A stretch of DNA of 64,000 nt, from positions 152,496 through 216,495 of IMG/VR virus record IMGVR_UViG_3300035183_000733. One strand, written 5' to 3'. Origin of the DNA: a virus. Below the pieces are notes generated by a model. It did no database searches. It saw only the letters and a list, made by a program, of their open reading frames with translations, and was not told the DNA's origin. This document shows positions 33,791 to 50,480 of the stretch, one piece after another. The position numbers and the translations under genes were made by a program. The first letter of the stretch is position 1, and each line of letters starts with the position of its first letter.

Positions 33791-34651
33791 TTAATTATAC
33801 CACTTTATGTTCGGTAGTTCCATTATTTCCTTGCCCATTTCTGACAGCATCTTGCCCATGGAACTGTAAGTGAGCGCACGCCAGTGTAAAGGTGTCTTGC
33901 CCGTCTTAGAGTTCAGCACGATTTTCAACCGTTCGCCGGATAGATTCTTCTCACTCATTCCGAGCGCTTTGAGCATATTCGGCTTGCTACTGAACCCGAC
34001 CTTTTGTGGCTTGATCTTACCGTCTTGTATTGTCAGCCTATAATAATCATCGCCAAGCAGAACCATGTTGGCATCCTGTGCATCGGTATTGTCTGCTTTT
34101 TTCCTACCGTATGATAATACTCTCTGTATCGGTATCGCGTAGAGCCTGGTCGTCCCATCCGGTTGTTTCTCCCCGGTCATTAGTATCATGCTCCCGAGTC
34201 CGGCCTTCGTAAAATTCTCGTTGACATTCTCGTTCATTATCTCTGCATCATCTTGATCGAACACTGCAACCATGTTACCGTCGCGTACCGTGTGACCGTC
34301 GAACTTCTGTAAACGTTCTTTGATGAACAGCGCGTCGTATCCCTGTGATATTAGCTTGGCCTTCCAATTTTTGAAAAACTCGGTATCCTTGGTGTGCTCC
34401 ATTCGTATTGCGTCCCACTCGTCCATAGTTATAACTTTCGGATTCTCGTAAGTCAGCTTGCATTTCATGATGTTCTCTCCGAACATCTTGGCAAGCTCTG
34501 CATCATCAGCAAACCAAATACCGAAAGCCGATGGGCCGCTCTTAGTTTTTGACATATCAAACTTGTCAAACTTACTGTCGGTACCATGATACCAAACAGA
34601 ACCATCGGTATTCTCGGACTCAAATAAGCTATAAGTTTTTATGTGCTTCAT
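33791..34651 (-). CDS. ADP-ribosyltransferase-like protein 2 with capsid-targeting-like N-terminus, 286 aa
   Basis: I place the start at ATG 34651 (MKHIKTYSLFE), not the longer frame, because this peptide recurs at the start of many neighbours and the start overlaps the upstream stop. After the peptide come ART motifs: VWYHGTDSKFDKF (about residues 18-30) and AFGIWFADDAELAKMFG (about 43-59), and a later VAVFDQDDAEIM (about 128-139) with the acidic catalytic-type residue. Prohead-protease-type cleavage would fall after SLFE. Analogy: T4 Alt, an ART packaged in the head and injected. A C-terminal domain of about 140 residues is unrecognised. Confidence 0.7.
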   Translation of the reverse strand: MKHIKTYSLFESENTDGSVWYHGTDSKFDKFDMSKTKSGPSAFGIWFADDAELAKMFGENIMKCKLTYENPKVITMDEWDAIRMEHTKDTEFFKNWKAKLISQGYDALFIKERLQKFDGHTVRDGNMVAVFDQDDAEIMNENVNENFTKAGLGSMILMTGEKQPDGTTRLYAIPIQRVLSYGRKKADNTDAQDANMVLLGDDYYRLTIQDGKIKPQKVGFSSKPNMLKALGMSEKNLSGERLKIVLNSKTGKTPLHWRALTYSSMGKMLSEMGKEIMELPNIKWYN

Positions 34652-35742
34652 ATCTTTGGTTTTCCCACCATTAGTTTTATGTGTTCTTTTCCGCCTATAT
34701 CGCGACCGTACCATCCGTCGCCTAGCATATCTGGGTCCGTAGGATGTTTGCCATAGAACATTATATCTTTACCTGGCATCAACTTTTTTATCTCGTCCTT
34801 GTCGTTGATGACGTTGATGTGATACTTGTTTATCAATATCTGCGCGAGCTTGCCGGACACCTCACTGTAGTAACCTATCTTAGATAAATCTTTAGCCTTA
34901 TGCTCAAGATACACTTTCTTCGTGTCCTTCTGTCCGTCGTGTCCGACTCCGGAGAATTTTATACCGTATTTTGTCTTCTGTCCGAACACAATTAGATCGA
35001 GGTCGGGGCTTCCATGAATATCGACTCCGCTCCAGAAGTTCCAATCCTTGTCGGCAAAGACGTCCTCTGGCTTTTTGATTTTTGCATGACCACCTATTTC
35101 TGAGTACGCTGTCGATATTAGATCGAAGAACTCCTTAGAAAGTTCCGGGTGTTCCTTTGGATTTATCTCCACCCACTGGTTTCTCTTCGGATCGAGTATC
35201 TCGCCAGACTTCTCGTCCATCTTAACGAGCTGCAGCACGTGTTTCTGGAATTCTTCGCGAGAAATACGGTGCTCGAGATCGTCCATTATTATCTCAGTGT
35301 TCCCGCTGTAATTATCGGCGAGCCACTTCTTCGTAATATTGGGGTCTATCCATGTATCCTTCTTGCCGAGTATAACAGTCATAGTCGGGGTGGCGCTTGC
35401 TGTTCGGTCCACTTGCACATCGGTCGATTGCTTATGCAAAGCCGGGTTGAATAATATGCCTGGAACGTTCAGCTTTCTGCACAGCCAAAACGCGAGGAAC
35501 CCGCCCATCGAGTTGCCTATTATCAATGATACTTCCTTACCTTTTAAAAGATTTATTATTTGGTTGAATATGGTGGATCCTTCCCTCCTATAATCCACAT
35601 GTGGCATAATCACATTGCTGAAATGCGACGCGAGCCATTCCCCCTTATCGCCTGGATTGGAATCAAGTCCGTGCAGATATAATATAACTGGGCCGTCCTT
35701 TTGTTCGGCCTCGAATAGTCTGAAGTTTATTAGGTGTCTCAT
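34648..35742 (-). CDS. Alpha/beta hydrolase plus unknown C-terminal domain, capsid-targeting-like N-terminus, 364 aa
   Basis: Residues 1-11 (MRHLINFRLFE) are the shared N-terminal peptide. Residues about 18-170 form an alpha/beta hydrolase: LYLHGLDSNPGDKG (oxyanion region), nucleophile elbow GNSMGG with Ser78, and DLEHRIS with a likely catalytic His. This is close in style to the YqiA/UPF0227 esterases. Residues about 180-364 form another domain (DLDLIVFGQKTKYGIKFSG; KKLMPGKDIMFYGK) that I do not recognise. The product may be a packaged, injected enzyme. Overlaps the ART 2 start by 4 nt. Confidence 0.75.
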   Translation of the reverse strand: MRHLINFRLFEAEQKDGPVILYLHGLDSNPGDKGEWLASHFSNVIMPHVDYRREGSTIFNQIINLLKGKEVSLIIGNSMGGFLAFWLCRKLNVPGILFNPALHKQSTDVQVDRTASATPTMTVILGKKDTWIDPNITKKWLADNYSGNTEIIMDDLEHRISREEFQKHVLQLVKMDEKSGEILDPKRNQWVEINPKEHPELSKEFFDLISTAYSEIGGHAKIKKPEDVFADKDWNFWSGVDIHGSPDLDLIVFGQKTKYGIKFSGVGHDGQKDTKKVYLEHKAKDLSKIGYYSEVSGKLAQILINKYHINVINDKDEIKKLMPGKDIMFYGKHPTDPDMLGDGWYGRDIGGKEHIKLMVGKPKI

Positions 35743-35745
35743 TGT

Positions 35746-36600
35746 TTATTTATTTGTATCTACGAACACGAACTCTATGTCAGATCCCGTCATCTCCGCT
35801 TTCATCGATGGGTTGTCGTCATAGTGTCTTATAGAACCGAGCTTCTCAAGGAACGGTCTCTTCGGCCTATCATTGGTGCATATAATTCCATCCACTGGGA
35901 GGTTATTCTCTTTTACGAATTGTTTAACCCATGGGTTTGGCCCGCCGTTCGGCATAGAATCTCTGGCAGTGACTATGTATATCGTGTGAGTCTTTGCCTC
36001 CTCGCGCATCTTGTCAATCATCTCGTCATTCGGAGTCCACAGTTCCGGACTCGGCAGAGGGTGTATTGTACCAGGGTAGATCCCAGTATGGAGCACACCA
36101 TCAAAGTCGAATGTGACCACCGACTTTTTATTCTCCGATTCGTACACAAGCTGCCTGCTTATGTGTATTGTTTTCTTATCTCCCATCAGTTCCCATTTAT
36201 ATGTGTCTGGTAAATCCTTTATCATCATCTTGTATATGCGGTCCCTCTTAGAAGGTCCGTTGTCATCATCGTCCTTGACACCTATGAACTCCACCTCGTA
36301 CTCCACCTCGTACTCCGCATTCTCATCGAGAAACGCAATAACAATATCGAGAACCGTTGCGAGCACTCTCATAGCGTTGTCGGCATTACCGAACCCGGTG
36401 GCGTTGACTCCGTACTTATCGGACTCGAACGTCACCTTGTACGTGTTGTCGTACCCGCTCGACATGAACTCGACGAAGTATCTGTCGTCATCCGAATTGA
36501 ACGTCGCGACCCTATTGGTGGTAGCAGGGATGGTCGTCCACTTCCACATGTATGGATTGGCGTTCATCTCGAACAGATTGTATGCGGTGAGGTGCCTCAT
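35746..36600 (-). CDS. HAD-type phosphatase with capsid-targeting-like N-terminus, 284 aa
   Basis: Begins with MRHLTAYNLFE. The middle is unrecognised; the C-terminal third is a HAD hydrolase: VTFDFDGVLHTG (DxD nucleophile motif I, around residue 162), YIVTARDS (motif II), and a late Lys/Asp region (RHYDDNPSMK, motif IV-type DD). Substrate unknown; nucleotide or phosphorylated protein is possible. The next start overlaps or abuts on both sides, in one operon with other tagged enzymes. Confidence 0.75.
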   Translation of the reverse strand: MRHLTAYNLFEMNANPYMWKWTTIPATTNRVATFNSDDDRYFVEFMSSGYDNTYKVTFESDKYGVNATGFGNADNAMRVLATVLDIVIAFLDENAEYEVEYEVEFIGVKDDDDNGPSKRDRIYKMMIKDLPDTYKWELMGDKKTIHISRQLVYESENKKSVVTFDFDGVLHTGIYPGTIHPLPSPELWTPNDEMIDKMREEAKTHTIYIVTARDSMPNGGPNPWVKQFVKENNLPVDGIICTNDRPKRPFLEKLGSIRHYDDNPSMKAEMTGSDIEFVFVDTNK

Positions 36601-36845
36601 TAGTTCTTGTCGCGGTAGTTCTTGGGTACTATGTAGTTGGCGTGGTTCTTTATGGTCTTCACGCGCTCGATCAGCTCGTATACCACGTCTTCGAGGTACG
36701 TGAGTATCTGTGTTCGCTTCTCCTCTGCGAACAGGAATTTGGACATAGTCCTCTCGAAGAGCCTGCCCTTGTAGTTGAATCCCTTGTGTAGAACGCGGCG
36801 CTTCCTGCTCTCCGCTATGTCGTATAAACTTTGCTTAAGCGGCAT
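36600..36845 (-). CDS. Small basic protein, 81 aa
   Basis: Lys/Arg-rich helical protein (KQSLYDIAESRKRRVLHKGF). No family recognised and no capsid-targeting-like start. Overlaps the 2H phosphoesterase gene by 11 nt and touches the HAD gene. Confidence 0.6.
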   Translation of the reverse strand: MPLKQSLYDIAESRKRRVLHKGFNYKGRLFERTMSKFLFAEEKRTQILTYLEDVVYELIERVKTIKNHANYIVPKNYRDKN

Positions 36846-37386
36846 TTTGTACTATCGGCATTTTTGTTTGGTTCCTGTCGGCGTCTGAGTATATAAACTC
36901 TTTCGGCTTCACTTTGTACAATAGACCGTTAAAAAGCGCAACGTACTTCTGCCCGAGCCCTGGCTTCAGGTATGCGAGCGTGCAGTGAGGTTTGTAGTCT
37001 GGATACTCGTTTGTGTGTGGCAGTTCCTTCAGCTCTCTGTTAGTGGCATGCAGCCAATCCCCGATGGCATCGAACTTTAGCACGTCGAACTTGTCGTTGG
37101 AGAATACTGAAACGGGCCCGAGCGTTATGTCGCCGCAGCCGTCCTCGCCCATGCAATTGCGCATGCACGCGAAGGCTTGTTCCGCCGTGACCTCGTCCTG
37201 GTGAAGGCCGAACAGCAGCGTTACGTGCGGCTCATCCTCGAATCCTTTCTCGTCGAGGTCCTCCTTGTCTATGGCAGAGTGCAGCGTCTTGAGAAGTGGC
37301 ACGTCGAATGATACGAGCGCGCACGCGAGCTTCTTCTCACTATTCTCGCTCTCAAAGAGCCCGGCGTATGTCTTTAGAAATCTCAT
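36835..37386 (-). CDS. 2H phosphoesterase with capsid-targeting-like N-terminus, 183 aa
   Basis: Starts MRFLKTYAGLFE. Two HxT motifs define the 2H (LigT/CPDase) fold: PHVTLLFG (His54) and PHCTLAYL (His134), spaced as usual. Such enzymes open 2',3'-cyclic phosphates or cut 2'-5' or cyclic oligonucleotides; phage members include Acb1, which destroys CBASS signals. If cleaved after LFE and injected with the DNA, this enzyme could act against host nucleotide-signal defence from the first minute; that is inference. It overlaps the gp6-like gene by 1 nt. Confidence 0.8.
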   Translation of the reverse strand: MRFLKTYAGLFESENSEKKLACALVSFDVPLLKTLHSAIDKEDLDEKGFEDEPHVTLLFGLHQDEVTAEQAFACMRNCMGEDGCGDITLGPVSVFSNDKFDVLKFDAIGDWLHATNRELKELPHTNEYPDYKPHCTLAYLKPGLGQKYVALFNGLLYKVKPKEFIYSDADRNQTKMPIVQNAA

Positions 37387-39116
37387 TATCCTCTAAGATT
37401 AGATTTGGTGTTCTGGTTTACCCCCGTGTTGTACGTCTTCGGTATGACCTTCTTGATGACGATGTTAACCGAGCTCGGTACCTCGTCGTCTACGTCCTTC
37501 TCGTATGTTATGCCTCTCCTGTCGGTCCATCCTCCGCGCACTATGGCGAGCTCGCCCGGCTGTATGAGTATGTCGCCGAACTCGTCAATGCGAGGCGGCT
37601 CCAAGTTGGCGGTCGAGCTCCTTCCCGACGTCAGCGAAAGCTGATACTGGCGCTCGTCTATCTCTGACACTATCGAGATGTTGACCGAGTCTATCCCCGG
37701 TATGTTCTCCAATATTGAGATGAGGTCGGAGCGCGGGATACGGTCCCTTCGCCTGATGTTCAAGAAGTAGTCGCTCAGCTTCTCTATGACGTCCTGCTTT
37801 ATTATATCCTGCGGGATGTCGTCAAAAACTATCAGCGCTATGTTTATGACGAACCTGCTTATCTTGGGGTCCACTATCTGCAGCTCGGTGCTCACTATCT
37901 TCTGCCCGGATCTCTCAAACAACGTCAGCACCTTCTCCTTCTGGAAGTCGTTGAGTGTGAACCTCGACTCGTCTATGTTGAAGTAGTTCTCGTTAGACTT
38001 CAGCTTCTTCTTGACGTCTGGCACGAGGAACAGGTAGATTATCTTGTCGTCGGTCAGGTCCGCATCATTCGGCGTGGTGTACGCGTCTATGATGGAGAAC
38101 TGGTTGAACTTCTCGAGGAACACGATGCAGTGGTCCTCGTTAGCGAGCGTGTACGACCTGGAAGTCTTCGGCGCTATGAGCCTGGTGAGCTCGAGCAGCT
38201 CCGGGTTGGACCCAAAGTCCGGTGCGTTGATACTCCTGACTGTCAGAAGTTCGTTTAGGTCGAGCTCCTCACCGTACAGATTGTACCCTACGTCGTCCCA
38301 CTTGTACACGGCCTCCTCGTCTGTGGCGAGCACGAGGTTACCGTTGAGACCGGATGACACCACGTACTCGACGAGTATCTCGGCGCCGAGCTCAGGCATC
38401 TTGCCGAAGTGACCGTTGCCGAATATAACGTCTATACCGGAATTTATGCCAGTCTTGACAAGGCATCCTTTAGCCTCGCGCGGCATGTCGTACATTGAGT
38501 CGTACAGCTTCCACTTCTCCCCGTTGACGTACACGTTGACACGATAGTGTTCAACGAGCACTGTCTGGTTGAAGTTGGGAGAGAACGACTGTAATGGCTT
38601 GCCCGTACCGGTAGTGCTCTGCGATTCGAGCAGGCCCTGGATTATGTTCACTGGCGTGCCGTTCTTCGACCCGTCCAGAGGTATGCGCACCTCGTCGCCA
38701 GGTAGGTCGAGCATGTATGTCTGGCCGTTGTTCACACACTTTATCTTGGTCCAGTTCGGCAGTATGACGGTGCCCCCCGGTATGTCTATGTCCGCCCCGG
38801 CCTTTATCGAGAGACCGATCTCGCCGACGGCAGAGATCGCCCTCGTAGAGTTGTGCCCGGCGAGACGCGCAAGACCGGTGACCGAGTTGGCCCTGGTAGC
38901 CGTGTTAATGTTTAGCTCGGTTATGGAGTCCTCAATGTAGTACAGTATCATCTGCGCCAGGTTGTGCAGGACAAAGATTATCTGGCCATAAGCGGATGCT
39001 ACCGTGAAGTTGGTCCTGCTCTGGCGGAACTTGTCGACGGTGAAGTTTATCGAGTCCTCGATGAGCAGTTCTATCGCGAGTCGGTTCTTCTTGAATATGC
39101 TTGGTTGCTCTGCCAT
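37386..39116 (-). CDS. Baseplate wedge protein, gp6/J-like, 576 aa
   Basis: Matches the plan of T4 gp6 and P2 J-type baseplate wedge proteins: an N-terminal helical region, a central beta domain with a Gly-rich turn (VIFGNGHFGKMPELGAEILVE), then a tandem alpha/beta domain (FERSGQKIVSTELQIVDPKISR, about 410-431) and the SILENIPGIDSVNIS segment. It forms the inner wedge ring with gp25 (41167-41529). It has its own late-promoter-like box and terminator upstream. Confidence 0.8.
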   Translation of the reverse strand: MAEQPSIFKKNRLAIELLIEDSINFTVDKFRQSRTNFTVASAYGQIIFVLHNLAQMILYYIEDSITELNINTATRANSVTGLARLAGHNSTRAISAVGEIGLSIKAGADIDIPGGTVILPNWTKIKCVNNGQTYMLDLPGDEVRIPLDGSKNGTPVNIIQGLLESQSTTGTGKPLQSFSPNFNQTVLVEHYRVNVYVNGEKWKLYDSMYDMPREAKGCLVKTGINSGIDVIFGNGHFGKMPELGAEILVEYVVSSGLNGNLVLATDEEAVYKWDDVGYNLYGEELDLNELLTVRSINAPDFGSNPELLELTRLIAPKTSRSYTLANEDHCIVFLEKFNQFSIIDAYTTPNDADLTDDKIIYLFLVPDVKKKLKSNENYFNIDESRFTLNDFQKEKVLTLFERSGQKIVSTELQIVDPKISRFVINIALIVFDDIPQDIIKQDVIEKLSDYFLNIRRRDRIPRSDLISILENIPGIDSVNISIVSEIDERQYQLSLTSGRSSTANLEPPRIDEFGDILIQPGELAIVRGGWTDRRGITYEKDVDDEVPSSVNIVIKKVIPKTYNTGVNQNTKSNLRG

Positions 39117-39136
39117 CCTAAATGCGGTTCTATTTT

Positions 39137-39146
39137 CTTATATATC
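39137..39146 (-). promoter_or_regulatory. Late-promoter-like box GATATATAAG
   Basis: Minus-strand box 20 nt before the gp6-like ATG, just downstream of the terminator at 39153-39186. Confidence 0.6.
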
Positions 39147-39152
39147 ACTAAT

Positions 39153-39186
39153 AAAAAAGCCCGCCGTTTAAATGGGCGGGCTTTTT
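39153..39186. terminator. Bidirectional intrinsic terminator
   Basis: AGCCCGCC-GTTTAAAT-GGGCGGGCT type stem with A-run on the left and T-run on the right. It ends the 39.2-40.2 kb minus-strand unit before the gp6 promoter. Confidence 0.85.
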
Positions 39187-39207
39187 AACTTCAAAATTTA
39201 CTCTTAT

Positions 39208-39314
39208 TTAGCGGCTATCTGCGGTGTCGTTTTTTGTGTACTCGCCCTTCTTGGCTTCCACGTAATCTACCACGGCCTTTGCTGCCGCGACTATGCCCCT
39301 CAGGTGTGTTTCAT
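39208..39314 (-). CDS. Possible 35-aa protein interrupted by a frame change
   Basis: A sensible C-terminal text (AAAKAVVDYVEAKKGEY) ends in TAA at 39208. The only near ATG (39314, MKHT) is in another phase and would need a one-base change in CACACCTG. Low certainty. Confidence 0.3.
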
Positions 39315-39316
39315 TG

Positions 39317-39688
39317 TTATTCTGGTTTTTGTTCGAGGACCGCGTCGAGTCCCTCCTGGTTCGGGCTTATCTCGTCGGTCTCGATCTTCTGGATCTTCTT
39401 GAGGCTCGCGACGTACGCTTTGGTAGAGTTCAGAACCTTCCCCTTGCCCTCCTGGTCCATGCCGAGCACCTTCTGGATGAACTTAGACTTATCGCGCTCC
39501 TTGTCGAAGTGCGAGTAAAGCGAATACGCAGCATTGAGTATGGCCTTCCTGACCGGCGTATCCTTGTCCCCAAAGTCTGCCACCTTAGCATCTTCCACGA
39601 ACTTGATGTCCTGCGGATCGACAGTGATGAACCTGGATATAAGCGACTCGTTCAGTTCGAAATCGGATATGTCCTTGATCTTGCGCAT
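39317..39688 (-). CDS. Small helical protein with capsid-targeting-like N-terminus, 123 aa
   Basis: Begins MRKIKDISDFELNE, a variant of the shared peptide with a possible protease site after LNE. The rest is helical and charged with no known motif. It abuts the upstream 166-aa gene. Confidence 0.65.
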   Translation of the reverse strand: MRKIKDISDFELNESLISRFITVDPQDIKFVEDAKVADFGDKDTPVRKAILNAAYSLYSHFDKERDKSKFIQKVLGMDQEGKGKVLNSTKAYVASLKKIQKIETDEISPNQEGLDAVLEQKPE

Positions 39689-40189
39689 TTACTTGAGCCT
39701 TGTTGCTTGTCCTGATAGTTCTTTGAGGATGGACTGGATTGCATCAACTATCATCTCGCGACGATCGTCCTCCATGTCATCGATGCCGTTGTCGGTGCAG
39801 ATCTTGTCGAACGCCTCCTGCAATATCGTTCCATTTATTCCCCCATCCCTGTCGCTGGCCTTTGACATCTCGAACGCCTCGGCTATGATTGCCTTAGCGT
39901 GCTCCTCCGCGATGTCACCAACGTCGAGGTCCATCTCGTATCCCTCACCGATCATCTTGGTCTTGTACTGGTTGAGCTCTTCCTGGGTCTTGTAAAATGA
40001 GCCAACGTTAGGTCCGGCCACTTCCTTCCAGCCTTTGCTTTCCTTGACGATCTTTATCTTCTTAGGCTCGTCAAGCGTGTTTGAGTAGTGATCGTCCACA
40101 ACCTGGTCGCCCTTCTCAATCTTTACCTTGTTCTTGAGGAACTCCTCGAAGGACATGGTCTTTCTCTTTTTTACGTTGTTGTTATCCAT
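39689..40189 (-). CDS. Helical protein of unknown function, 166 aa
   Basis: Lys-rich start (MDNNNVKKRKTMSFEEFLKN) that could be a divergent form of the shared tag, followed by an acidic helical body (DLDVGDIAEEHAKAIIAEAF). No family recognised. First gene after a late-promoter-like box. Confidence 0.65.
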   Translation of the reverse strand: MDNNNVKKRKTMSFEEFLKNKVKIEKGDQVVDDHYSNTLDEPKKIKIVKESKGWKEVAGPNVGSFYKTQEELNQYKTKMIGEGYEMDLDVGDIAEEHAKAIIAEAFEMSKASDRDGGINGTILQEAFDKICTDNGIDDMEDDRREMIVDAIQSILKELSGQATRLK

Positions 40190-40209
40190 ATTGAACGGGT
40201 TTGTTTGAT

Positions 40210-41145
40210 TTATATATCGAAGCTGTCTATGCTTTTTATGTGAATTCCCTCGTATATATTACTCGTCCCCGGGTCGAACCTGCCGTTGTTGTCGACGCTC
40301 TTTATGTTCTTCGAGTCGAATACGCAGTACTGGCTCACCCTGGAGTTCTTACTCGGTGCGTCGTACCGGGTATCTACTATGGCAAAACCGTCGTGCTGGC
40401 TGTCGGTCAGCTCCTTCAATAGCTTAAGGTTTGCCTCCTTCTTGTTAGTGTTGATGTACCTCTCGAGCCATGCGCCAGGCTTCCCCTTCTGACCGTTTAT
40501 GTATTCTGTGTATTTGTCCCTGTAGTTCATGAACTGCTCGAATGAATCCGTGTGCTTCAGCAGCCTGATCTGGTCGTGCAGGTCCTTCATCTGCCTCTCT
40601 ATCTTGTAGAACTTCTCGCGCTTGTCTGGCGTCATATCGTTGACTGACCAGCCGAGTGAGACCTTGTCCACGTTCAAGTCGTGTATTGTCTGCTCCAGTG
40701 CGTCTATCTCTGATTGGTTGAACAGAGCCGGCTTGAATACCTTGGGGTTCCTCATGTTTAGGAACACCTCGTAGATGCCACCCTTAGACGAATTGAACAT
40801 GAATTCCTTTGCCACGCGCAGGTCGTTCGTGAACCAGATGCCGAGGTCGTTCGTCTCGTTGTCAGTCGCCCTTGCCATCTTGTAGTCATTCATGAACTCC
40901 TTGAATCCAAATGACGGAGTTCCGTGGTACACGACCATGGGCTCGCCGTTCTTGTCCACAACCTTGCTCGAGTTCTCCGGGTCGTTCTCCCAGTCACCGA
41001 ACCAGGTCTTGAACTCCGGCGTACGGACCATCGCGTGCAAATTCGCGGGCAGGGAGGACTTCTTGCCGTTCGGTGCTTTCAAAGCAGCGTCGAGCGCGGT
41101 CTCACCAGGCCCCCCGAATTCTGATATGTCCTTCAGTTTCTTCAT
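40210..41145 (-). CDS. ADP-ribosyltransferase-like protein 3 (PolyVal type) with tag-like N-terminus, 311 aa
   Basis: N-terminus MKKLKDISEF is a variant of the shared peptide (ISE). FKTWFGDWENDPENSSKVVD (about residues 50-69) is the lead-in typical of phage polyvalent-protein ARTs, followed by VVYHGTPSFGFKEF (about 79-92), NDLGIWFTNDLRVAKEF (about 105-121) and the C-terminal RVSQYCVFDSKNIKSV (about 268-283). This order is the usual H-Y-[ED] ART layout. A coiled helical insert lies between. Likely an injected or late-made host-modifying enzyme. Confidence 0.75.
   Translation of the reverse strand: MKKLKDISEFGGPGETALDAALKAPNGKKSSLPANLHAMVRTPEFKTWFGDWENDPENSSKVVDKNGEPMVVYHGTPSFGFKEFMNDYKMARATDNETNDLGIWFTNDLRVAKEFMFNSSKGGIYEVFLNMRNPKVFKPALFNQSEIDALEQTIHDLNVDKVSLGWSVNDMTPDKREKFYKIERQMKDLHDQIRLLKHTDSFEQFMNYRDKYTEYINGQKGKPGAWLERYINTNKKEANLKLLKELTDSQHDGFAIVDTRYDAPSKNSRVSQYCVFDSKNIKSVDNNGRFDPGTSNIYEGIHIKSIDSFDI
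40211..40219 (-). promoter_or_regulatory. Late-promoter-like box GATATATAA overlapping a stop codon
   Basis: The box contains the last codons and stop of ART protein 3 (GAT ATA TAA) and lies 21 nt before the ATG at 40189. Confidence 0.6.
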
Positions 41146-41166
41146 TTATTTGTAAGTTGCGCTGGA

Positions 41167-41696: not shown

Positions 41697-41705
41697 GTAA
41701 TAATG

Positions 41706-42131: not shown

Positions 42132-42449
42132 TTAGTCGGTTGTTTGTACCGGGGCTGATTGCGCTATCTCGATAACGTCCGTCTCCGACAGCTTCTTTTT
42201 CTTCTCTATCAGGTACTTCCTGAGTCCGGTGACGTCGTCGGGTGTGGACATTCCGCCGTCCTCGAGTATCTTGGGTGTTATCGTGAACACACACTTGCCG
42301 TCGCCGTCCCTGACCTCGCCGGAGAACCCCTCGGTGCTGCTGTCGAACATATACAGATAGTACGTGTTGCCTGATCCGCCCGTCTTTTCCGGGTATGGAT
42401 CGGCGAAGTTCTCCACGATGAAGCTCTCGAATGTCTTAAGTCTTTTCAT
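42132..42449 (-). CDS. Small protein with capsid-targeting-like N-terminus, 105 aa
   Basis: Start taken at ATG 42449 (MKRLKTFESFIVE) and not the frame start at 42479, because the peptide fits the shared tag with a cut site after IVE and the late-promoter-like box would fall inside a longer gene. Domain after the tag: YYLYMFDSSTEGFSGEVRDG and a Lys-rich helix; no family recognised. Confidence 0.65.
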   Translation of the reverse strand: MKRLKTFESFIVENFADPYPEKTGGSGNTYYLYMFDSSTEGFSGEVRDGDGKCVFTITPKILEDGGMSTPDDVTGLRKYLIEKKKKLSETDVIEIAQSAPVQTTD

Positions 42450-42477: not shown

Positions 42478-42485
42478 ACAGATTT

Positions 42486-42500: not shown

Positions 42501-42505
42501 CAATT

Positions 42506-42958: not shown

Positions 42959-42959
42959 G

Positions 42960-43078: not shown

Positions 43079-43513
43079 TTATTGTTGTGGCTGGAGTCCA
43101 CCCATTGCAAACGGCCTCTCTGCGAGCGCATTTAACCTGCCCTGAACTATAGTGTGGAACACGGTCTCGGCGCAATACTGCGTCCTGAAGTTCCTGTTCT
43201 TGCAGTTGAAGACTATCAGGTCGAACTCGTCCTGCCTCTCGTTGACAACCTTGTCGATGACCTCCTTTAGCCTGTCGAGCATGGTGAAGTTCTTCTCAGA
43301 TATTGACAAGAAGTCCATACCAATGTTGAAACAAGCGTCCCTCACTGTCTGGTAGTAGTCGTCTCGTATCGGTTCCAACTGCCCGGACATCATATAATAA
43401 TTATTCAGCCCGAGTGGATTCTGCGGAGAACGTCTGCGAACGGCCACGGTAATATTGGTGGGTCCGCTCCCATTGAGCTGTATCGATTCGTTTATGTCCT
43501 TGATGTACTTCAT
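43079..43513 (-). CDS. Small enzyme-like protein with capsid-targeting-like N-terminus, 144 aa
   Basis: Begins MKYIKDINESIQLNG; a cut after INE would fit the protease rule. Body is alpha/beta (FDLIVFNCKNRNFRTQYC). No family recognised. Coupled to the next gene (start/stop overlap at 43513). Confidence 0.65.
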   Translation of the reverse strand: MKYIKDINESIQLNGSGPTNITVAVRRRSPQNPLGLNNYYMMSGQLEPIRDDYYQTVRDACFNIGMDFLSISEKNFTMLDRLKEVIDKVVNERQDEFDLIVFNCKNRNFRTQYCAETVFHTIVQGRLNALAERPFAMGGLQPQQ

Positions 43514-43863
43514 TAGACCGATGCCTGCAGTAGCTTTATCAATTCTTCGAGGACGTACTGCGCCTTGTACTTAACCTCGCTCTTGCCGACCTTGCCGACC
43601 CTCGAGTTTATCTCGGTCTCCACGATCTTGCCAATTTCTTCCACTATGGCATCGAGCTCCGGAGCATCGTCCTTCACAATTCCTTCGGCAACAATGTGGT
43701 TCTGCGAGTACTCGCCGAACCTCTCCTTGTACTGCTCCTGTATCGCCTGGAGCGCAATCCTGGCTGCATCCTGTTGCGACTTGAGCGGATTGGTCTTGAT
43801 GATGTGCATCATCTCGTTCATCTGTGTGACGAAACGGAGTCTGTCGAATTCTTTCTTTTCCAT
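43513..43863 (-). CDS. Helical protein of unknown function, 116 aa
   Basis: Charged helices throughout (LRFVTQMNEMMHIIKTN; VKYKAQYVLEELIKLLQ). No tag and no known motif. First gene after a late-promoter-like box. Confidence 0.65.
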   Translation of the reverse strand: MEKKEFDRLRFVTQMNEMMHIIKTNPLKSQQDAARIALQAIQEQYKERFGEYSQNHIVAEGIVKDDAPELDAIVEEIGKIVETEINSRVGKVGKSEVKYKAQYVLEELIKLLQASV

Positions 43864-43880
43864 TTATTTTCGGTTGGTTT

Positions 43881-43893
43881 CTTTATATATCAC
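43881..43893 (-). promoter_or_regulatory. Late-promoter-like box GTGATATATAAAG overlapping a stop codon
   Basis: 17 nt before the ATG at 43863; includes the TGA stop of the nucleotidyltransferase gene (43890-43892). Confidence 0.6.
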
Positions 43894-44522
43894 TTGACCG
43901 CGGCCAATTTCTCGTTGGCTTCATACAGCACCTCTTGCGGGACTACCTGAGAAAGGGTCTCGTAGCTGTCCGCATCCGCCCTGGTTATCCCGAGCCACTT
44001 GAGGAACTCGTCGGGATCCGACGTTATCTCAACCGACGACGACCATACGCTCTCCGCCTTCATTGCGCCCTTGTTGAGGTCGAACTTGACGCCCCTGCTC
44101 TTGGCGAGCGCACACAGCAACCAGTTCCTGTGTGCGCTCTTCGCCTTGCCGGTCACCTTCGCGTACACGAATTTGGACCATTCTGGGTAGTACACCGGTA
44201 TGAGGTCTACCTGCACCATCCCGTTGATCGCCTTGCCACATATCGGGAATCCGAAGCTGTACACTGATATTCCCGGCATCGCCTTGCCCTGGACGGTCTT
44301 GCCAAGCTTGGCGCTCATGACCCATGTAAAGTCCTGCTTCGGATCGACTCTCACACCAAGATCCAGGTCGCCGGACAGTCCCTCCTCCCGGTGCCACGCT
44401 GATCCTATTAGCATGACCGTCTCGACCTTCGAGTGATCGAGGAACCTCTTTAATGGAGAGAGTGTCTGGCGTGCCTCGTCACCAGTTATCTTTCTAACAC
44501 CTTGTATCGCATATCCCCCCAT
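43890..44522 (-). CDS. Nucleotidyltransferase (pol-beta superfamily), 210 aa
   Basis: Motif VMLIGSAWHREEGLSGDLDL (about residues 36-55) has the GS...DxD signature of pol-beta nucleotidyltransferases, and MVQVDLIPVYY (about 106-116) supplies the third carboxylate. Acceptor unknown. No tag at the N-terminus. A second, unrelated enzyme of this superfamily is at 5287. Abuts the tagged 44522 gene. Confidence 0.75.
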   Translation of the reverse strand: MGGYAIQGVRKITGDEARQTLSPLKRFLDHSKVETVMLIGSAWHREEGLSGDLDLGVRVDPKQDFTWVMSAKLGKTVQGKAMPGISVYSFGFPICGKAINGMVQVDLIPVYYPEWSKFVYAKVTGKAKSAHRNWLLCALAKSRGVKFDLNKGAMKAESVWSSSVEITSDPDEFLKWLGITRADADSYETLSQVVPQEVLYEANEKLAAVK

Positions 44523-44815
44523 TATCTTGTAGTTTCTGTCTTTGCAAGTTCCAATGCCTCCTTGTACGTATTATTGTCGGGGTATAGTCTGCAGAGCTTG
44601 CCTATCCATGATACTATCTGGTCCTTCTTGTCCTTGGTGAATATGCCCTTGCCTACCGAGATGTAATGAAAATTGCTCAGGACATCCTCCTTGGAAATAC
44701 TCGGATGGTCCTCAAACGCGCTAAGCTCCTCTTCAGTCGGTTCTCTGTACAGAGTACGATCGAACACCATGATTGGTTTCTCATTGAAACTTTCGTATAG
44801 TTTTAGATGTTTCAT
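44522..44815 (-). CDS. Small protein with tag-like N-terminus, 97 aa
   Basis: Start taken at ATG 44815 (MKHLKLYESFNEKP), since it matches the shared peptide; the frame could begin six codons earlier. The potential cut site SFNE departs from the (L/I)xE rule at the first position. Body: short helical protein (EDHPSISKEDVLSNFHYI), unknown. Confidence 0.6.
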   Translation of the reverse strand: MKHLKLYESFNEKPIMVFDRTLYREPTEEELSAFEDHPSISKEDVLSNFHYISVGKGIFTKDKKDQIVSWIGKLCRLYPDNNTYKEALELAKTETTR

Positions 44816-44870
44816 ATTAGATTGCCACTCCAACCATGCCCCGCTTCATAGTCGTCCATCAACAAAATAT

Positions 44871-46020
44871 CTACTTTATAGTTTTAACACCCTTACCGTT
44901 ATATATCCAAAACTCGAACTTAATACCAAGTGCTTCTGCTGCTTGTTTTTTTAATAAGTTCAATGGAAGGTTTGTTTTTAATGTATAGTCGCACTTAACC
45001 TCCACTATTCTATTCTCAGATATTATATAAATATCGGGGTAGTACTTGCGTTTAATTCCTACAGAATCGACATACCAGATGCGCCCCGTGTGCTTCTCTA
45101 TCTCTGCGTTCGACACCACTATGTCGTCCTCCACATACCCCATGTTAAGCAGGTCGTTGATAGCAAACCCTTCGTACCCTTGGATCTTCTCGAGCCTACC
45201 AGACGGGAACATGTATAATTTCTTCTTGAACTGTGCTGACTTGTTAGCATCAAACGACGGAGCGTGCTGCATGATGTGCTCTACGCCATACCGCTCCACC
45301 ATCGTCTCCCTGAACTTGGCCCTGAAATCCTTGGACTGTGTGTACCAGTCTGCACCGTGCTTTGACCTGTTTGTGTTGCGAGCCTTTTCTTTCACCACAT
45401 CCGAACACATCGATGACGCGCCTCCGTACCTCTCCTTGTTTGTATTTTGTAACTTCTTCATTACGGACTTGTTTTGTAGCACATGGTCTACACCGTACTT
45501 GGCACGGACCGTATCGATCTTCCTCTTCTTTGACTGGTCGGATTGCGTGTGGTGCTCGACTCCGTACTTTTTGATATAAGTTAACTTTGACTTTATCCTT
45601 GAAGTTCTGAGATTGCGTCTGGTGATCACAACCGTACCGCTCGCGGTTTGTCGCTATGACCTTTTCTTTGCATTCTTTGGTCTCAAAATAATTGTCGACT
45701 CCATACTTAGCTTTCACTGCTTCCTGCGTCTTATCTAAGTTATACTTCTTCTTGCATTCTATAGCAGTACATGTAGCGTAATAGTTAACTGCATTTGTTG
45801 GCTTGATGCCATACCGATCGATGGAGAATTTTCTCATCTTTGAAAACTCTCGCGGGGCCGAACAATATGGACAAACCTCAATCTCATAGCTGGAAAACCA
45901 CACGTGGTAGAACCGCTGTTGTATGGAAATATTTTCTGCTGGTGCATACATCTCGTCGAGAAACCGGGTCAGTTCTCGCAGCTCCGCCACATGTTCAGGG
46001 TTCTTCGATATACACTGCAT
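44871..46020 (-). pseudogene. PD-(D/E)xK homing-endonuclease-like gene split by a one-base shift
   Basis: The 5' part (ATG 46020) has Cys pairs (VCPYCSAPREF; CTAIECKKKY) and repeats of the type KxKVIATNRERYGCDHQTQS. At about 45587 the repeat continues only after skipping one G (KDKVK then LTYIKKYGVEHHTQS), giving five or six repeats in all of the form ERYGVxHxxQ. The 3' part ends with a nuclease core YPDIYIISENRIVEVKCDYT, the PD...ExK active site. Repeats plus this nuclease are typical of phage-borne mobile endonucleases. Either inactivated or a sequencing indel. Confidence 0.7.
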
Positions 46021-46071
46021 GATTGAGCCAAAGGCCTTGCCTGTCTTGGATCTCCACTGATAAGTTTGTTT

Positions 46072-46083
46072 ATCTATATATCT
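46072..46083 (-). promoter_or_regulatory. Late-promoter-like box GATATATAGATA
   Basis: 51 nt before the ATG of the homing-endonuclease-like gene; weaker match. Confidence 0.35.
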
Positions 46084-46092
46084 CTTAATTTT

Positions 46093-46824
46093 TCAACTCC
46101 ACAGTAAAAACCATGCAGGAGAGTTCTCGCTGTCTATCTGTGCCAGAATTTTCTCGAGCTCCTCTTTGCCGTCCTGTTTGATGCCGTCGAAGTTTATCTG
46201 TACACCGCCTGGCAGGTTGTAGTTGAATATGGATAACGTGCGTCCGAGGTTTATCTTGGCCATCGCCAGGCAGTAGCGAACGAACAGCTCGTCGTCATAA
46301 AGATTCTCTTCTGGTATCTTCACCATCGTGCGTATTACTGCGCTCCTGAACGGGTTGCGGCCCATAACAGTTATTCTCTTCGTGTTCTTGTTGAAGCTGT
46401 ATGCTATGGTCTCGAGAAGGTAAGCCCTTGCGAGGTCGAAGTAGCTGTACATCGCCGTCCTGTAAACGAGGTTGTCACCTTGGAATGGTGAAAGGAATAT
46501 CTCGGCTCCGAGGAGCTTTGAGTCCGAGAAGTCTCTTTCCGGCTGGCCCACGAGTCCGAGACCGGTGATTTCGCGCATATCGTACACCGACATGACGCAG
46601 TCTGGAAGTATTATCTCGCGCTTGGTCTTGAAGCTCTCGTGCTGGAATATGCCCTCTGGTATCAGGATGAACCTGTCCTCGACGGCATATTGGTAGTTAT
46701 CGTAGAAATACTCGCGGGCCCTCTTTATGATACGCTTGACTTCCGCCTCGTTGAGCGAGTACGGGAGCGCGCACGATAGGGTGAGCTCGTTGTTTATTTC
46801 TTGAATTAGTTGCGCCTCTGTCAT
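46093..46824 (-). CDS. Virion structural protein (neck/head-completion candidate), 243 aa
   Basis: A helical start (AQLIQEINNELTLSCALPYS) and alpha/beta body (FLSPFQGDNLVYRTAMYSYF; KRITVMGRNPFRSAVIRTM). The size and style recall neck or connector proteins of T4-like phages (gp13/gp14 class), but no firm motif. Coupled with a 22-codon ORF upstream. Confidence 0.6.
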   Translation of the reverse strand: MTEAQLIQEINNELTLSCALPYSLNEAEVKRIIKRAREYFYDNYQYAVEDRFILIPEGIFQHESFKTKREIILPDCVMSVYDMREITGLGLVGQPERDFSDSKLLGAEIFLSPFQGDNLVYRTAMYSYFDLARAYLLETIAYSFNKNTKRITVMGRNPFRSAVIRTMVKIPEENLYDDELFVRYCLAMAKINLGRTLSIFNYNLPGGVQINFDGIKQDGKEELEKILAQIDSENSPAWFLLWS

Positions 46825-46827
46825 TTT

Positions 46828-46896
46828 TTAATAACCTTTTCTTTTTAGCTTGGCAATATATTTCGGGTCGTCAAGTTCCTTTATCCATCGTTTCAT
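46828..46896 (-). CDS. 22-aa basic peptide gene
   Basis: MKRWIKELDDPKYIAKLKRK plus two residues; its ATG overlaps the amidoligase stop (ATGA) and its own stop is 3 nt before the next ATG, so it fits neatly between two coupled genes. Function unknown. Confidence 0.5.
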   Translation of the reverse strand: MKRWIKELDDPKYIAKLKRKGY

Positions 46897-48260
46897 AGTT
46901 TATTTATGCCGAGCTCGGTCTTGCCGTGAGTGTTTGGCGTTCCCTTGTCGTCTTTGTTGTCGGCCTTGAGCACCTGCTCTATGACCTCGGTCTCCTTTGA
47001 TATTTTTGCCAGCTGGCCTATCTCGCCGGACCTTATGATACCACCCTCGACCTTACCGTTTATTATTCGCTTCTTGTTGTCGATGTAGCAACTGTGCGCT
47101 TCATTGTACGCGTGGAATGGCGTGTTAATTATCTTTGACTTCGACACGATATTGCCGGAGTACAGGTTGGAGTCTGCGACGTGCGCGTTAGTTATCACGC
47201 ACCTGTACAGGTCGCACCCGAGTATGTTGCCCTGTAGCTTGGAGTCAAATAATTCAAGTTCCTTTATGTCGAATCCCTTCTGTATTATGGCGTCCTTGAG
47301 TTGATACCTTCCGGCATCTGCGTCGTAGTTTAGGATGCCCTTACGCATGCCACAGTTGACGATGAGATCGAACAGCTTCTCCCTCAGTACCGGGTAGTAC
47401 GTCTTAATCACTTGCGGCTCACCCTTCAGGTCCACAAACAGCTTTATGTTCGGGTAGTTGTAGAAGAACGCCTCCATGTCCGAGAACGAGGATACCACCT
47501 TCTTGTGCTCGACTATGACGCTCTTGAGCCTCGACAGTTCCGCATCAGTATAGATGTTGTTGTTCTGTAGCACGTTATACGTGAACGTGCCGATATAATT
47601 TATTATCTGGAGCAGGTCGTGTGCTTTCTTCTCGTAGCTTCGCCCGCCGCAGTACCTGACCTCGAAGTATCCCTTCGAGAGCTTGGAGAAATTGATGCCG
47701 TAGTACTTGTCGCTCGGCAGCTTGTAGTTCTCTTTGTGTATCTGTGTGATGTTCTCGTTGAAAATGAACTTGTTTACCGGCAGTATCTGGTTGATGCTCC
47801 TGGCGTACATCGAGTTCTTCCTTTTCGGGAATCTGTCGTATATGAACTGCTCGTCGAACCCGAGTATGAACTTGAGCTTGTTTATGAACTGCAGCTTGTT
47901 CTTAAGGTCTATCTTGAACTCGTCGAACGACATGTTGACGTGCAGCGCGCACTTCTCGTCGGTCCACCCGTTGTCCCGTATCCACCCAAGCACCTTGGTC
48001 AAACAAGATATTGCCTCGTAGTACGGCATCGGTTCTGTGATGATCTCGTTCATGCGGACGCCGCCGGAGAAGTCAGGTTCGACCTTCCATTCGCCATCGC
48101 CGAGCGGAGTCTCGGAGTGGTACACCTCGCCGACCTTAATCTTCTTCCTGACGATGGCGCCGAGCTCCTTGGAGAGCTCCTTCCTCGTCTTGTTGGTGTA
48201 CATCTCGAACTCGAACCCAATGACCAGGCCGTTCAGTATTTTGCTTTCTTGTATGTTCAT
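46893..48260 (-). CDS. Amidoligase family protein, 455 aa
   Basis: Matches the putative amidoligase family (glutamine synthetase-like, Amidoligase_2): GFEFEMYTN (residues about 15-23), EPDFSGGVRMNEIITEPM (about 61-78), CALHVNMSFDEF (about 103-114) and a basic GGRSYEKKAHD (about 203-213). These enzymes are thought to form amide bonds with glutamate or peptides and often occur with ATP-grasp genes, two of which are in this window. The C-terminal 150 residues are a separate, Cys-containing region. Preceded by two tiny coupled ORFs. Confidence 0.75.
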   Translation of the reverse strand: MNIQESKILNGLVIGFEFEMYTNKTRKELSKELGAIVRKKIKVGEVYHSETPLGDGEWKVEPDFSGGVRMNEIITEPMPYYEAISCLTKVLGWIRDNGWTDEKCALHVNMSFDEFKIDLKNKLQFINKLKFILGFDEQFIYDRFPKRKNSMYARSINQILPVNKFIFNENITQIHKENYKLPSDKYYGINFSKLSKGYFEVRYCGGRSYEKKAHDLLQIINYIGTFTYNVLQNNNIYTDAELSRLKSVIVEHKKVVSSFSDMEAFFYNYPNIKLFVDLKGEPQVIKTYYPVLREKLFDLIVNCGMRKGILNYDADAGRYQLKDAIIQKGFDIKELELFDSKLQGNILGCDLYRCVITNAHVADSNLYSGNIVSKSKIINTPFHAYNEAHSCYIDNKKRIINGKVEGGIIRSGEIGQLAKISKETEVIEQVLKADNKDDKGTPNTHGKTELGINKL

Positions 48261-48335
48261 CTAAGACCCAATTTTAATAATAAGTCGGCACCCGTTCCCA
48301 TCCTCGCAGCTGTTTGTGATAATGACATTCCTCAT
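48261..48335 (-). CDS. 24-aa leader ORF before the amidoligase
   Basis: MRNVIITNSCEDGNGCRLII and four more residues; its stop (TAG) directly precedes the amidoligase ATG (TAGATG), giving likely translational coupling. Its start overlaps the end of the 16-aa ORF. Confidence 0.45.
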   Translation of the reverse strand: MRNVIITNSCEDGNGCRLIIKIGS

Positions 48336-48385
48336 CATGTTATTTCGTTAGCTTGTTCTGGCTTCAGTTGTTCCATCTTCTTCAT
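48335..48385 (-). CDS. 16-aa leader ORF
   Basis: MKKMEQLKPEQANEIT, stop overlapping the next start. It begins only one base after the late-promoter-like box, so it may be untranslated if that box is a true -10. Confidence 0.3.
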   Translation of the reverse strand: MKKMEQLKPEQANEIT

Positions 48386-48386
48386 G

Positions 48387-48397
48387 TTTTATATATC
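48387..48397 (-). promoter_or_regulatory. Late-promoter-like box GATATATAAAA
   Basis: Just downstream of the S1/ncRNA terminator and before the leader ORFs of the amidoligase unit. Confidence 0.55.
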
Positions 48398-48401
48398 GTG
48401 T

Positions 48402-48437
48402 AAAATAAAAAGAGGGACCAGTTTTAATGGTCCCTCT
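48402..48437 (-). terminator. Intrinsic terminator of the S1/ncRNA transcript
   Basis: AGAGGGACCA-GTTTTAA-TGGTCCCTCT stem of 10 bp followed on the minus strand by TTTTTATTTT. It lies directly after the structured RNA. Confidence 0.9.
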
Positions 48438-48438
48438 C

Positions 48439-48571
48439 ATCTAAGATTGAGTGCCTAACAGTGAGCAGGCCGTATCTATCGTTCGCGATTTGGCCCCTGT
48501 GTCTGTACGTCGCGACTCGCTCAGGGTTCCTGGTTTACACTCGGTATTTCGACCCCTTATTCCCCTTAGAT
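48439..48571 (-). ncRNA. Unidentified structured RNA between the S1 gene and its terminator
   Basis: The 133-nt segment is closed by complementary ends: ATCTAAG (48571-48565) with CTTAGAT (48445-48439). A second helix GAGTG/CACTC is nested inside, then CCCTG/CAGGG, with two copies of the self-complementary TCGCGA that could pair with each other as a kissing contact. It begins at the S1 stop codon and is followed at once by a strong terminator, so it is at least a 3' UTR element of the S1 transcript. It does not match tmRNA, SRP RNA or RNase P RNA patterns that I know. Confidence 0.65.
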
Positions 48572-49668
48572 TACTCTTCGTCGGCCTTCAGGTAGATCTT
48601 GCGAGCCGAAACATCCACGAATTTCACGTAAACGTCCACGTCGTCGCCGACTTTGAGACGTCCGAGTTTCTTTAGTTCCTTGGTAGGTAACAATCCAGTC
48701 ACCTTGTTCTTCATCTCAACAAAGGCCCCGAACTGCTTGATGTCCTTGATCTCTCCCGTCACAATCTCTCCCTCGTACTTGGCCTTGAACTCGGTCAGCG
48801 CCATAATCTCAGGCGATGGACCCTTCTGACTTAGTATGATACGGTTGTTCTCGCGTATCTCCTTTATGTAGAACTTCATCTGGTCTCCCGGCTTTATGTT
48901 CCTCCAGTCGCCGTCAGTAATCTCGGATTCGTGCAGGAGCCCTGTGAACATCTCGTCCCACTCCACGAACACGCCGTAGTCCACAGTCCCAGTTGCGATC
49001 CCGGTAAATTGCGCTCCGAGGTCGAGTTCCTTTATCTTCGAAGGGATTATCTTCTGTATGTACTTCTTGTTCGACACTACGAACATGTCGGACGATTCGA
49101 GGTAGTTTTCCACCATTACCATGACCTCCCTGCCGAGCATTGACTCGAAGTTGAGGACCTTGTTGGCGGCAGCCAGGGATCCTGGCATGAAGCAGTCGAG
49201 CCCGGCGATGTCGACCATGAAGCCGCCATCGTTTATGGACTTGATGGTGCCCTTGTAAGCGGTAAACTCTGTTTTCATAGAATCGAATAGGTCTCGCTTC
49301 AGGGTTATCATGTACGCCTTCTCTATAGAGCCGTAGTAATTGCCCCTGTTGATTGTCTCGAGCAGGACATCCACTTGCAGCCCCGGCTTGAGCGTGTGCC
49401 CGGTTTTCTCGAGGAATCTGCTTTCCTTCTGGTAGTCGAGGAATATGTTCGCGGACGATTCCGTTGTAACAACGACGATCGATCCGTCGACTTTGTCTAC
49501 TCTGGCCTTGCATATCTGGCCCACAACCATGTCTTTGGGGACTATGGAGCGGCCCTCGAAGTAGGCCTGGTATTTGTCGTAAAGTTCTTGCGCGTATGGT
49601 TCCTGGCAGTATACCTTGTGGCTTGGGTCCTTGGTTATTACTGACTTGTTCTCTATGAGTCTGCCCAT
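48571..49668 (-). CDS. Ribosomal protein S1-like, four S1 domains, 365 aa
   Basis: Four S1 RNA-binding domains at about residues 48-123, 137-200, 217-281 and 301-362; the last two are the most typical (GTVDYGVFVEWDEMFTGLLH; GEIKDIKQFGAFVEMKNKVT). The two N-terminal domains are divergent, as are the ribosome-binding domains of cellular S1. Bacterial S1 has six domains (four to six in other phyla), helps mRNA onto the 30S subunit and also binds tmRNA. The phage copy could redirect initiation, replace host S1 or act with SmpB. Transcribed with the structured RNA downstream. Confidence 0.9.
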   Translation of the reverse strand: MGRLIENKSVITKDPSHKVYCQEPYAQELYDKYQAYFEGRSIVPKDMVVGQICKARVDKVDGSIVVVTTESSANIFLDYQKESRFLEKTGHTLKPGLQVDVLLETINRGNYYGSIEKAYMITLKRDLFDSMKTEFTAYKGTIKSINDGGFMVDIAGLDCFMPGSLAAANKVLNFESMLGREVMVMVENYLESSDMFVVSNKKYIQKIIPSKIKELDLGAQFTGIATGTVDYGVFVEWDEMFTGLLHESEITDGDWRNIKPGDQMKFYIKEIRENNRIILSQKGPSPEIMALTEFKAKYEGEIVTGEIKDIKQFGAFVEMKNKVTGLLPTKELKKLGRLKVGDDVDVYVKFVDVSARKIYLKADEE

Positions 49669-49737
49669 TGAGATTTTAATTTTGGTGGTTAAACAATAGT
49701 TATCTGCGTATCGTATCTTTATTATATACTCAAACCT

Positions 49738-49758
49738 ATAAAAGCTTCGGCTTTTTTA
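49738..49758. terminator. Short hairpin terminator
   Basis: AAAAGC-TTCG-GCTTTTTT; T-run on the plus strand, shorter T-run on the minus strand. It follows the small gene at 49763. Confidence 0.5.
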
Positions 49759-49762
49759 AGAA

Positions 49763-49918
49763 TTATTTGAGCTTCTCCTCCAAAACGAGAGTGCCGTCCT
49801 TTTTTATCTTATCCGCGAGCTCCCTCGTTATGACATACGTCTCCATTCTCTTGGGTGTCAACGATTTCTTCATCTTGAATTTGGCTATCTCCGGGTGGCT
49901 CGATTTGTACACGGACAC
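49763..49918 (-). CDS. Small basic protein, about 51 aa
   Basis: GTG at 49918 starts VSVYKSSHPEIAKFKMKKSL and the frame ends VLEEKLK at 49763. The frame is open further upstream into the SprT stop region, but without a standard start. Unknown function; its codon pattern and Lys/Glu content look coding. Confidence 0.5.
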   Translation of the reverse strand: MSVYKSSHPEIAKFKMKKSLTPKRMETYVITRELADKIKKDGTLVLEEKLK

Positions 49919-49928
49919 CGTAAGCTTC

Positions 49929-50480
49929 CTAAAAATATGCAGACCGTATTTTTTTTAGCCACACAATAAAGTCCGCCAGGTTATTATCGGTTATCAGGTC
50001 TACCGGCACGACTACGAGACTGATAGCCTCGATTTCGTCAAATATGACGACCCCGTATTCCTTTATCCTCGCATAGCTCGAAACCTCGAACTCCTCGGCG
50101 TTCTCCGACTTGACTATGTTGTATTCTGGGAATTTTTTGTTCAGTTCCTCCCTCATCCTCATGAATCTCGGGCCGTGCGCGTCCCGCTCCCTCACCCCCG
50201 TTTGCTCAAGGTATGCGTGTATCATCTCGTGCGCGAGAACGTTCCTGAGCTCCTGGAGTGACATCTTGTAGTAGTACGATATGCCTATGTCTCGGATATT
50301 CTGCCCGTCGTAGCTCATGAGCCCTACGGTGTTCTTCGAGTTCATCCACCTCAGCGGCACCGGTTTAACTTTGCCGTCGAACTGGCGCGTATTGATATGG
50401 TCGAATTCGGCACGGAGGTCGATTTTCTTGTAGTTAATGTGTTCGGCCTCAAACAGTCCTATGTCCTTGATGTATTTCAC
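49929..50480 (-). CDS. SprT-like zinc metalloprotease with capsid-targeting-like N-terminus, 183 aa
   Basis: N-terminus MKYIKDIGLFE fits the shared tag with a cut after LFE. The body has the SprT/Wss1-type metalloprotease core: LAHEMIHAYLEQTG (His84, Glu85, His88) and RERDAHGPRF (His102), the third zinc ligand. SprT-like proteases cut DNA-bound proteins. A packaged protease could enter with the DNA. An upstream paralogue is broken (50495-50858). Confidence 0.8.
   Translation of the reverse strand: MKYIKDIGLFEAEHINYKKIDLRAEFDHINTRQFDGKVKPVPLRWMNSKNTVGLMSYDGQNIRDIGISYYYKMSLQELRNVLAHEMIHAYLEQTGVRERDAHGPRFMRMREELNKKFPEYNIVKSENAEEFEVSSYARIKEYGVVIFDEIEAISLVVVPVDLITDNNLADFIVWLKKIRSAYF

Follow-up and report, generated by a model that had tools for sequence, protein, structure and literature searches.

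An N-terminal peptide shared by unrelated proteins of a huge phage and its probable role as a capsid-targeting label

Phage T4 injects the inhibitors Ip1-3, internal proteins with nothing in common but an N-terminal leader, and this leader directs their packaging (PMC12373910); capsid targeting of T4 head proteins is also treated in PMC5694885 and PMC9958956. The T4 head carries the ADP-ribosyltransferase (ART) Alt (PMC5694885), and at least 10 cargoes have been reported for T4-like phages (PMC12373910). Here we describe a near-identical peptide of 10-14 residues, hereafter the tag, that is common to the called N-termini of dozens of otherwise unrelated proteins of the 373,759-bp virus record IMGVR_UViG_3300035183_000733. 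We read it as a head-addressing propeptide of the T4 capsid-targeting kind, with a probability of roughly 0.83. The window is the whole stretch of 64,000 nucleotides corresponding to bases 152,496-216,495 of that record.

As with IPI-III and Alt of T4, a short N-terminal peptide stands on unrelated proteins, ends in (L/I)xE before A or S, and occurs together with a gp21-type protease and ART cargo. In contrast to T4, the peptide is longer and different (MKHIKLFExF(I/V/L)NE versus MKTYQEFIAE), the protease is fused to the scaffold, and we estimate 30-45 tagged proteins, many of them enzymes, where T4 has a handful of cargoes. The head ejection proteins of phiKZ and SPN3US offer a second parallel, being numerous, cut by the prohead protease, and ejected, but their propeptides mostly exceed 100 residues and are largely not shared (PMC5694885). 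The polyvalent injected proteins described by Iyer and colleagues (PMC5512222, PMC7824862) contain the same ART domain family, PF18760; here, however, the ART domains lie in separate, individually tagged proteins of ~250-480 amino acids and are not concatenated. The literature that we found treats only T4-type and phiKZ-type head targeting; for huge phages, we met no account of this tag in it. New here are the scale, the cargo of enzymes, and a peptide distinct from that of T4, in a system that appears to work like the T4 capsid-targeting sequence.

A near-identical N-terminal peptide on unrelated proteins

The first-pass annotation of the window had listed eleven N-terminal peptides of this kind, and all 11 were found at their starts, each on the minus strand. 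We sampled ~65% of the genome as stretches (244 kb, 300 called N-termini), using gene calls from a simple script in which a few starts may be off. A pattern drawn from the window examples matched 30 of the 300 N-termini versus 13 of 1460 internal Met residues (Fisher 1e-14), and in 500 residue shuffles it gave a mean of 3.5 and a maximum of 10 matches. Because this pattern was post hoc, we used an out-of-sample matrix trained only on a 482-kb relative, G001. At a threshold of ≥8 bits, this matrix found the tag at 20/300 N-termini and at 1/1520 internal Met residues of the present genome, bearing out the enrichment at N-termini; inside the window, the counts were 7/63 and 0/341. The tag recurs beyond the span first noted, at genome positions 21050, 36106, 98280, 102743, 135947, 136327, 136857, 140732, 151591, 334023, 337547, and elsewhere, and the estimate of 30-45 tagged proteins per genome was derived from the matrix rate plus extra copies met in a domain search. 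Two paralogous repeat proteins (genome 95834-96969 and 265517-266647; MKxVKLFTQSxWETFEYDKLSDISAEFKKRGI) also match the tag pattern at their starts and are probably a different thing.

The tag is conserved as protein. In G001, 19 pattern-positive genes with unrelated bodies lie within 12 kb (L142:7768-19896, genome ~457,800-469,900); nearly all of them start with MKHIKLFExF(L/I)NE and are mostly MKHIKLFEGFLNE-like, and synonymous codons of the G001 tags differ at almost every position, a variation on which we reject a DNA- or RNA-level cause of the shared peptide. A scan of IMG/VR for DNA encoding MKHIKLFE returned at least 120 stretches with at least 155 open reading frame starts; among the matches listed, 152 of 155 starts lay no more than 23 codons from an in-frame stop. 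The proteins behind the peptide in these viral contigs fall into at least 95 clusters. Positions that had not been part of the search were kept among the 92 unrelated proteins in the matches listed: an aromatic residue at position 10 in 87, I/V/L at position 11 in 54, and E at position 13 in 58, extending the motif to the form given above, whereas residue 14 onward was unconstrained. Conservation halts sharply after hydrophobic-x-Glu, the end that a protease site would predict. In 257 Gb of bacterial and archaeal genomes, the MKHIKLFE pattern occurred at four places, two of them within phage-like tagged runs, so that we do not regard the tag as a feature of cells. One of the four lies in L293 (CAIWBA010000291.1, 254 kb), a contig filed in a Bacteroidetes metagenome-assembled genome; its series of tagged genes gives it the look of a contig from a huge phage that was binned together with a possible host. 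In stretches of RaK2, Atu_ph07, and Syn9, the tag was not clearly above background, with 0 N-termini at 8 bits, and the mass-spectrometry list for phage CBB (PMC5259590) was set aside on that ground.

The tag also behaves as a separable module. Apart from evident paralogs, the mature parts have almost no pairwise similarity, and recognisable domains begin directly after the tag (ART at residue 19, UPF0227 at residue 20, SprT-like at residue 24). Orthologs of two window proteins (genes at window 39317-39688 and 40210-41145) in L280 and L281 are tagged although the tag residues differ (MRKIKDISDFELNE, MKKIQSLDDFKINE, MKIIKSLDTFRLNE). For the tagged 2H phosphodiesterase of the window (36835-37386), the genome also holds a paralog (322761) that lacks the tag and opens with the domain itself, and three further contigs have homologs (40-45% identity) that are tagged. 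In an AlphaFold2 model of the window protein, residues 1-16 have a predicted local distance difference test score below 50 and confidence sets in from about residue 20, suggesting that the tag is a disordered stretch ahead of a folded enzyme. Searches for relatives with the window esterase (gene 34648-35742) gave no match, and those with the SprT-like protein gave short homologs only, none of them tagged.

Prohead protease, scaffold, and cleavage-type sites

The gp21-type prohead protease that the capsid-targeting hypothesis predicts was found at genome 112767-113126 (Peptidase_S77, PF03420, E 3.4e-11). The domain sits in a 662-residue protein (genome 111219-113207), where it is fused to a scaffold region with about eleven near-identical repeats of the YSEYLAENLDKNI type, each containing an LAE-like site. 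It matches the T4 gp21 structure 5jbl (E 1e-4), and two of its motifs, GELDHP and ISSRA, align with GELNHP and VSSRG of T4, in which we place gp21's catalytic His and Ser. The protease-scaffold fusion is common to dozens of relatives, PTm1, and an uncultured 462-kb phage; in the PTm1 record, the arrangement is named "prohead core scaffolding protein and protease".

The major capsid protein (MCP; gene at genome 109686-111200) has near its N-terminus the cleavage-type sequence LNE↓S (arrow, predicted cut; peptide YHSLNESAIH), with E in 62/67, L at P3 in 63/67, and S at P1' in 60/67 aligned sequences. The tags end in MCP-like form (LFE↓S, LFE↓A, LNE↓S, INE↓S), with P3 mostly L or I.

Additional support comes from the Sphingomonas phage PAU (JQ362498), in which a shared N-terminal peptide, MK(T/S/G)(L/I)xxL(Y/F)E of the MKTLSKLYEAKLNEA type, stands on 18 of 294 proteins and at 0 of 1,290 internal Met residues. 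These 18 comprise four of the five proteins labelled "internal capsid protein", the scaffold, and 13 others (Fisher 5e-5). With 14 tagged proteins unlabelled and one labelled protein untagged, it is improbable that the tag was the basis of the labels. PAU differs from the present phage in the wording of the tag, in having protease and scaffold as separate genes, and in that its record leaves the tag undescribed.

The capsid-targeting reading and its alternatives

In the mechanism that we propose, each cargo would dock, through its basic/aromatic stretch M(K/R)x(I/L)KxF, into the core of scaffold and protease on which the prohead is being built. Once the shell has closed, the scaffold-fused protease would cut the scaffold, the MCP, and the tags, the last after (L/I/V/F)xE, and mature cargo would be left inside the head. 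On infection, the cargo would enter the cell together with the DNA, and its enzymes and many small proteins of unknown function could act on the host ahead of phage gene expression. The tag is very probably a removable label that directs proteins to the head, from where they could enter the host with the phage DNA; injection as such would follow from the T4 precedent.

Several points weigh against this reading. The sequence itself shows the tag, its conservation as protein, its modular use, the protease, and cleavage-type sites that match between tag, MCP, and scaffold; docking, packaging, cleavage, injection, and the role of each cargo are inferred. A clean (L/I)xE end is missing from the tags at window 41145 and 43513 and from several G001 tags. 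PTm1 shares the fused protease-scaffold yet lacks the tag. The PAU record gives no basis for its labels, and the labelled gp70 is untagged. Finally, the likeness to T4 noted at first pass held for the shared design, the F-I-x-E↓A end, and the gp21-type protease but not for T4's own sequence: no T4 N-terminus, its own tag included, scored significantly with the clade matrix (none at 6 bits), and FIAE↓A and FINE↓A resemble each other over just a few residues, so that shared descent with the T4 sequence is unproven.

The peptide might instead direct proteins to another phage-made site, such as a replication compartment, a membrane, or a protein body, given that sorting signals on unrelated proteins are known for other compartments as well. 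We consider this unlikely: in PAU, the scaffold and labelled internal capsid proteins are tagged, the tag ends in the cleavage-type sequence of the capsid protein, and the replication and tail proteins of the window are untagged. Less probable still is a translation or stability enhancer, or a turnover mark, with no role in sorting. In its favour are the position of the peptide at the start codon, its richness in A, and the scarcity of Shine-Dalgarno sites (8 of 58 window genes); against it, the amino acids are conserved while synonymous codons are free, the spacing varies, conservation extends as far as residue 13 and stops at Glu, and most genes of the same operons are untagged. Descent from one diverged family, of which the N-terminus would be a remnant, could be suspected from the paralogous cargo (five ART proteins; the repeat family at 95834/96082/265517) but is rejected on the lack of homology among most mature parts, which come from unrelated Pfam families. 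Chance or composition in the gene calls, a concern insofar as the first pattern was drawn up after examples had been seen, is refuted by the out-of-sample matrix, the shuffles, and the at least 155 exact eight-residue starts in viral contigs.

If the tag is a capsid-targeting label, the injected protein sets of a large class of uncultured huge phages become predictable from N-termini, as the estimate for this genome, the 12-kb run in G001, and the unrelated clusters in IMG/VR illustrate. Most of these proteins lack an assigned function and would be expected to act at the very onset of infection, so that new factors for anti-defence and host takeover could be drawn from them. The principle of the T4 internal proteins, familiar from a handful of small examples, would moreover be scaled to modular enzyme delivery with a portable 13-residue address label. 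We see about even odds for a wider proposition: that a broad group of huge, mostly uncultured, probably Bacteroidota phages uses an N-terminal head-loading code as a payload system, in which dozens of separately tagged effectors, each swappable via a 13-codon label, replace one giant polyvalent protein. Sequence alone would then reveal the injected sets, among them perhaps a cyclic-nucleotide phosphodiesterase that would counter cyclic oligonucleotide-based antiphage signalling (CBASS) and arrive before phage expression.

Tagged genes, cargo, and genomic setting

All features of the tagged run lie on the minus strand and are given in window coordinates. An ART-PolyVal ADP-ribosyltransferase (gene 33791-34651) begins with MKHIKTYSLFE followed by S (tag 34619-34651), a UPF0227/YqiA-like esterase (34648-35742) with MRHLINFRLFE followed by A (35710-35742), and a protein with a C-terminal HAD-like domain (35746-36600; phrog_415 match at residues 150-266, FDFDGVL motif) with MRHLTAYNLFE followed by M (36568-36600). 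The tag of the 2H phosphodiesterase is MRFLKTYAGLFE, followed by S (37351-37386). This gene shares one base with an untagged baseplate wedge gene (37386-39116, phrog_219), and because the tagged run abuts it we place the tagged genes in the virion gene block. Beyond the wedge gene, a small protein without assignment (39317-39688) carries MRKIKDISDFELNE followed by S (39647-39688), and a second ART-PolyVal protein (40210-41145) starts with MKKLKDISEF (41116-41145); tagged orthologs of the former are those in L280 and L281 described above, and of the latter L282 has one too. Three further proteins without assignment follow: one (42132-42449) with MKRLKTFESFIVE and then N (42411-42449), whose L281 ortholog begins MQYMKTFESF; one (43079-43513) with the partial tag MKYIKDINE and then S (43487-43513); and one (44522-44815) with MKHLKLYESFNE and then K (44780-44815), which at 24 bits has the top matrix score of the genome sample. 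The SprT-like metalloprotease (49929-50480) begins at a GTG codon with VKYIKDIGLFE followed by A (50448-50480).

Two candidates lie outside this run, also on the minus strand. A membrane protein (58370-59155) starts with a possible variant, MKRRTMLFE(QF) (59129-59155), which looks like a version of the tags with LFEQF that is longer by one residue; it has no matrix score, and the resemblance lies in LFEQF only. A 92-residue protein without assignment (28754-29032), missing from the earlier list, may carry an extra tag, MRNIKPYYDLPNMPE (28988-29032; 11.3 bits). The first-pass annotation had expected about a dozen enzymes and a membrane protein; the window falls short of this, with six recognisable tagged enzymes (two ADP-ribosyltransferases and the UPF0227 esterase, HAD-like, 2H, and SprT-like proteins), small unknowns, and one membrane protein, but genome-wide the number approaches a dozen.

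Across the genome, ART-PolyVal is present in five copies, all five tagged, one of them with a GNAT domain beside the ART domain; ART homologs at greater distance lie within untagged open frames of 750-2270 amino acids. In a 416-residue protein (L150:517-1764, genome ~4330-5577), the N-terminal tag is joined by another tag-like stretch (MNHLRKYNDFADDGDE) in mid-protein, ahead of GNAT and ART domains, as if two tagged proteins had merged in frame or the start had been called wrongly. Other predicted tagged cargo of the genome includes 2H phosphodiesterase, UPF0227 esterase, SprT-like protease, HAD-like enzyme, and NUDIX proteins, with a weak ParB-like match and possibly an AAA protein as further candidates, and tagged proteins of other phages include GNAT enzymes, another 2H/Acb1-like protein, and a cytidylyltransferase-like protein. 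The 2H protein of the window has a 2H phosphoesterase fold with two HxT motifs, both invariant. It scores 26.1 bits with the anti-CBASS family Acb1 (cut-off 27) and 27.7 bits with 2_5_RNA_ligase2 (cut-off 27), and its nearest folds are Usb1 and then a poxvirus cyclic GMP-AMP phosphodiesterase, with Acb1 at rank 15.

The MCP is nearest, among named phages, to that of the uncultured 462-kb phage (45%), the Lak megaphages (~40%), and Tenacibaculum jumbo phages (~31-36%), and its best IMG/VR match is 77%. Translation in Bacteroidota typically proceeds without Shine-Dalgarno sites, and since such sites are scarce here the host is probably a member of this phylum. The guanine-cytosine content is 51% in this genome versus 30-47% across relatives. 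Six predicted tRNA genes are clustered at window 59811-60820 (minus strand), one of them called, oddly, with a four-base anticodon. N-termini resembling secretory signal peptides (e.g., MKKLLSLFAAIMMSLSLFAQ) occur amid tail genes at window 7192-8142 (minus strand), 26600-28702 (plus strand), and 30378-30752 (minus strand).

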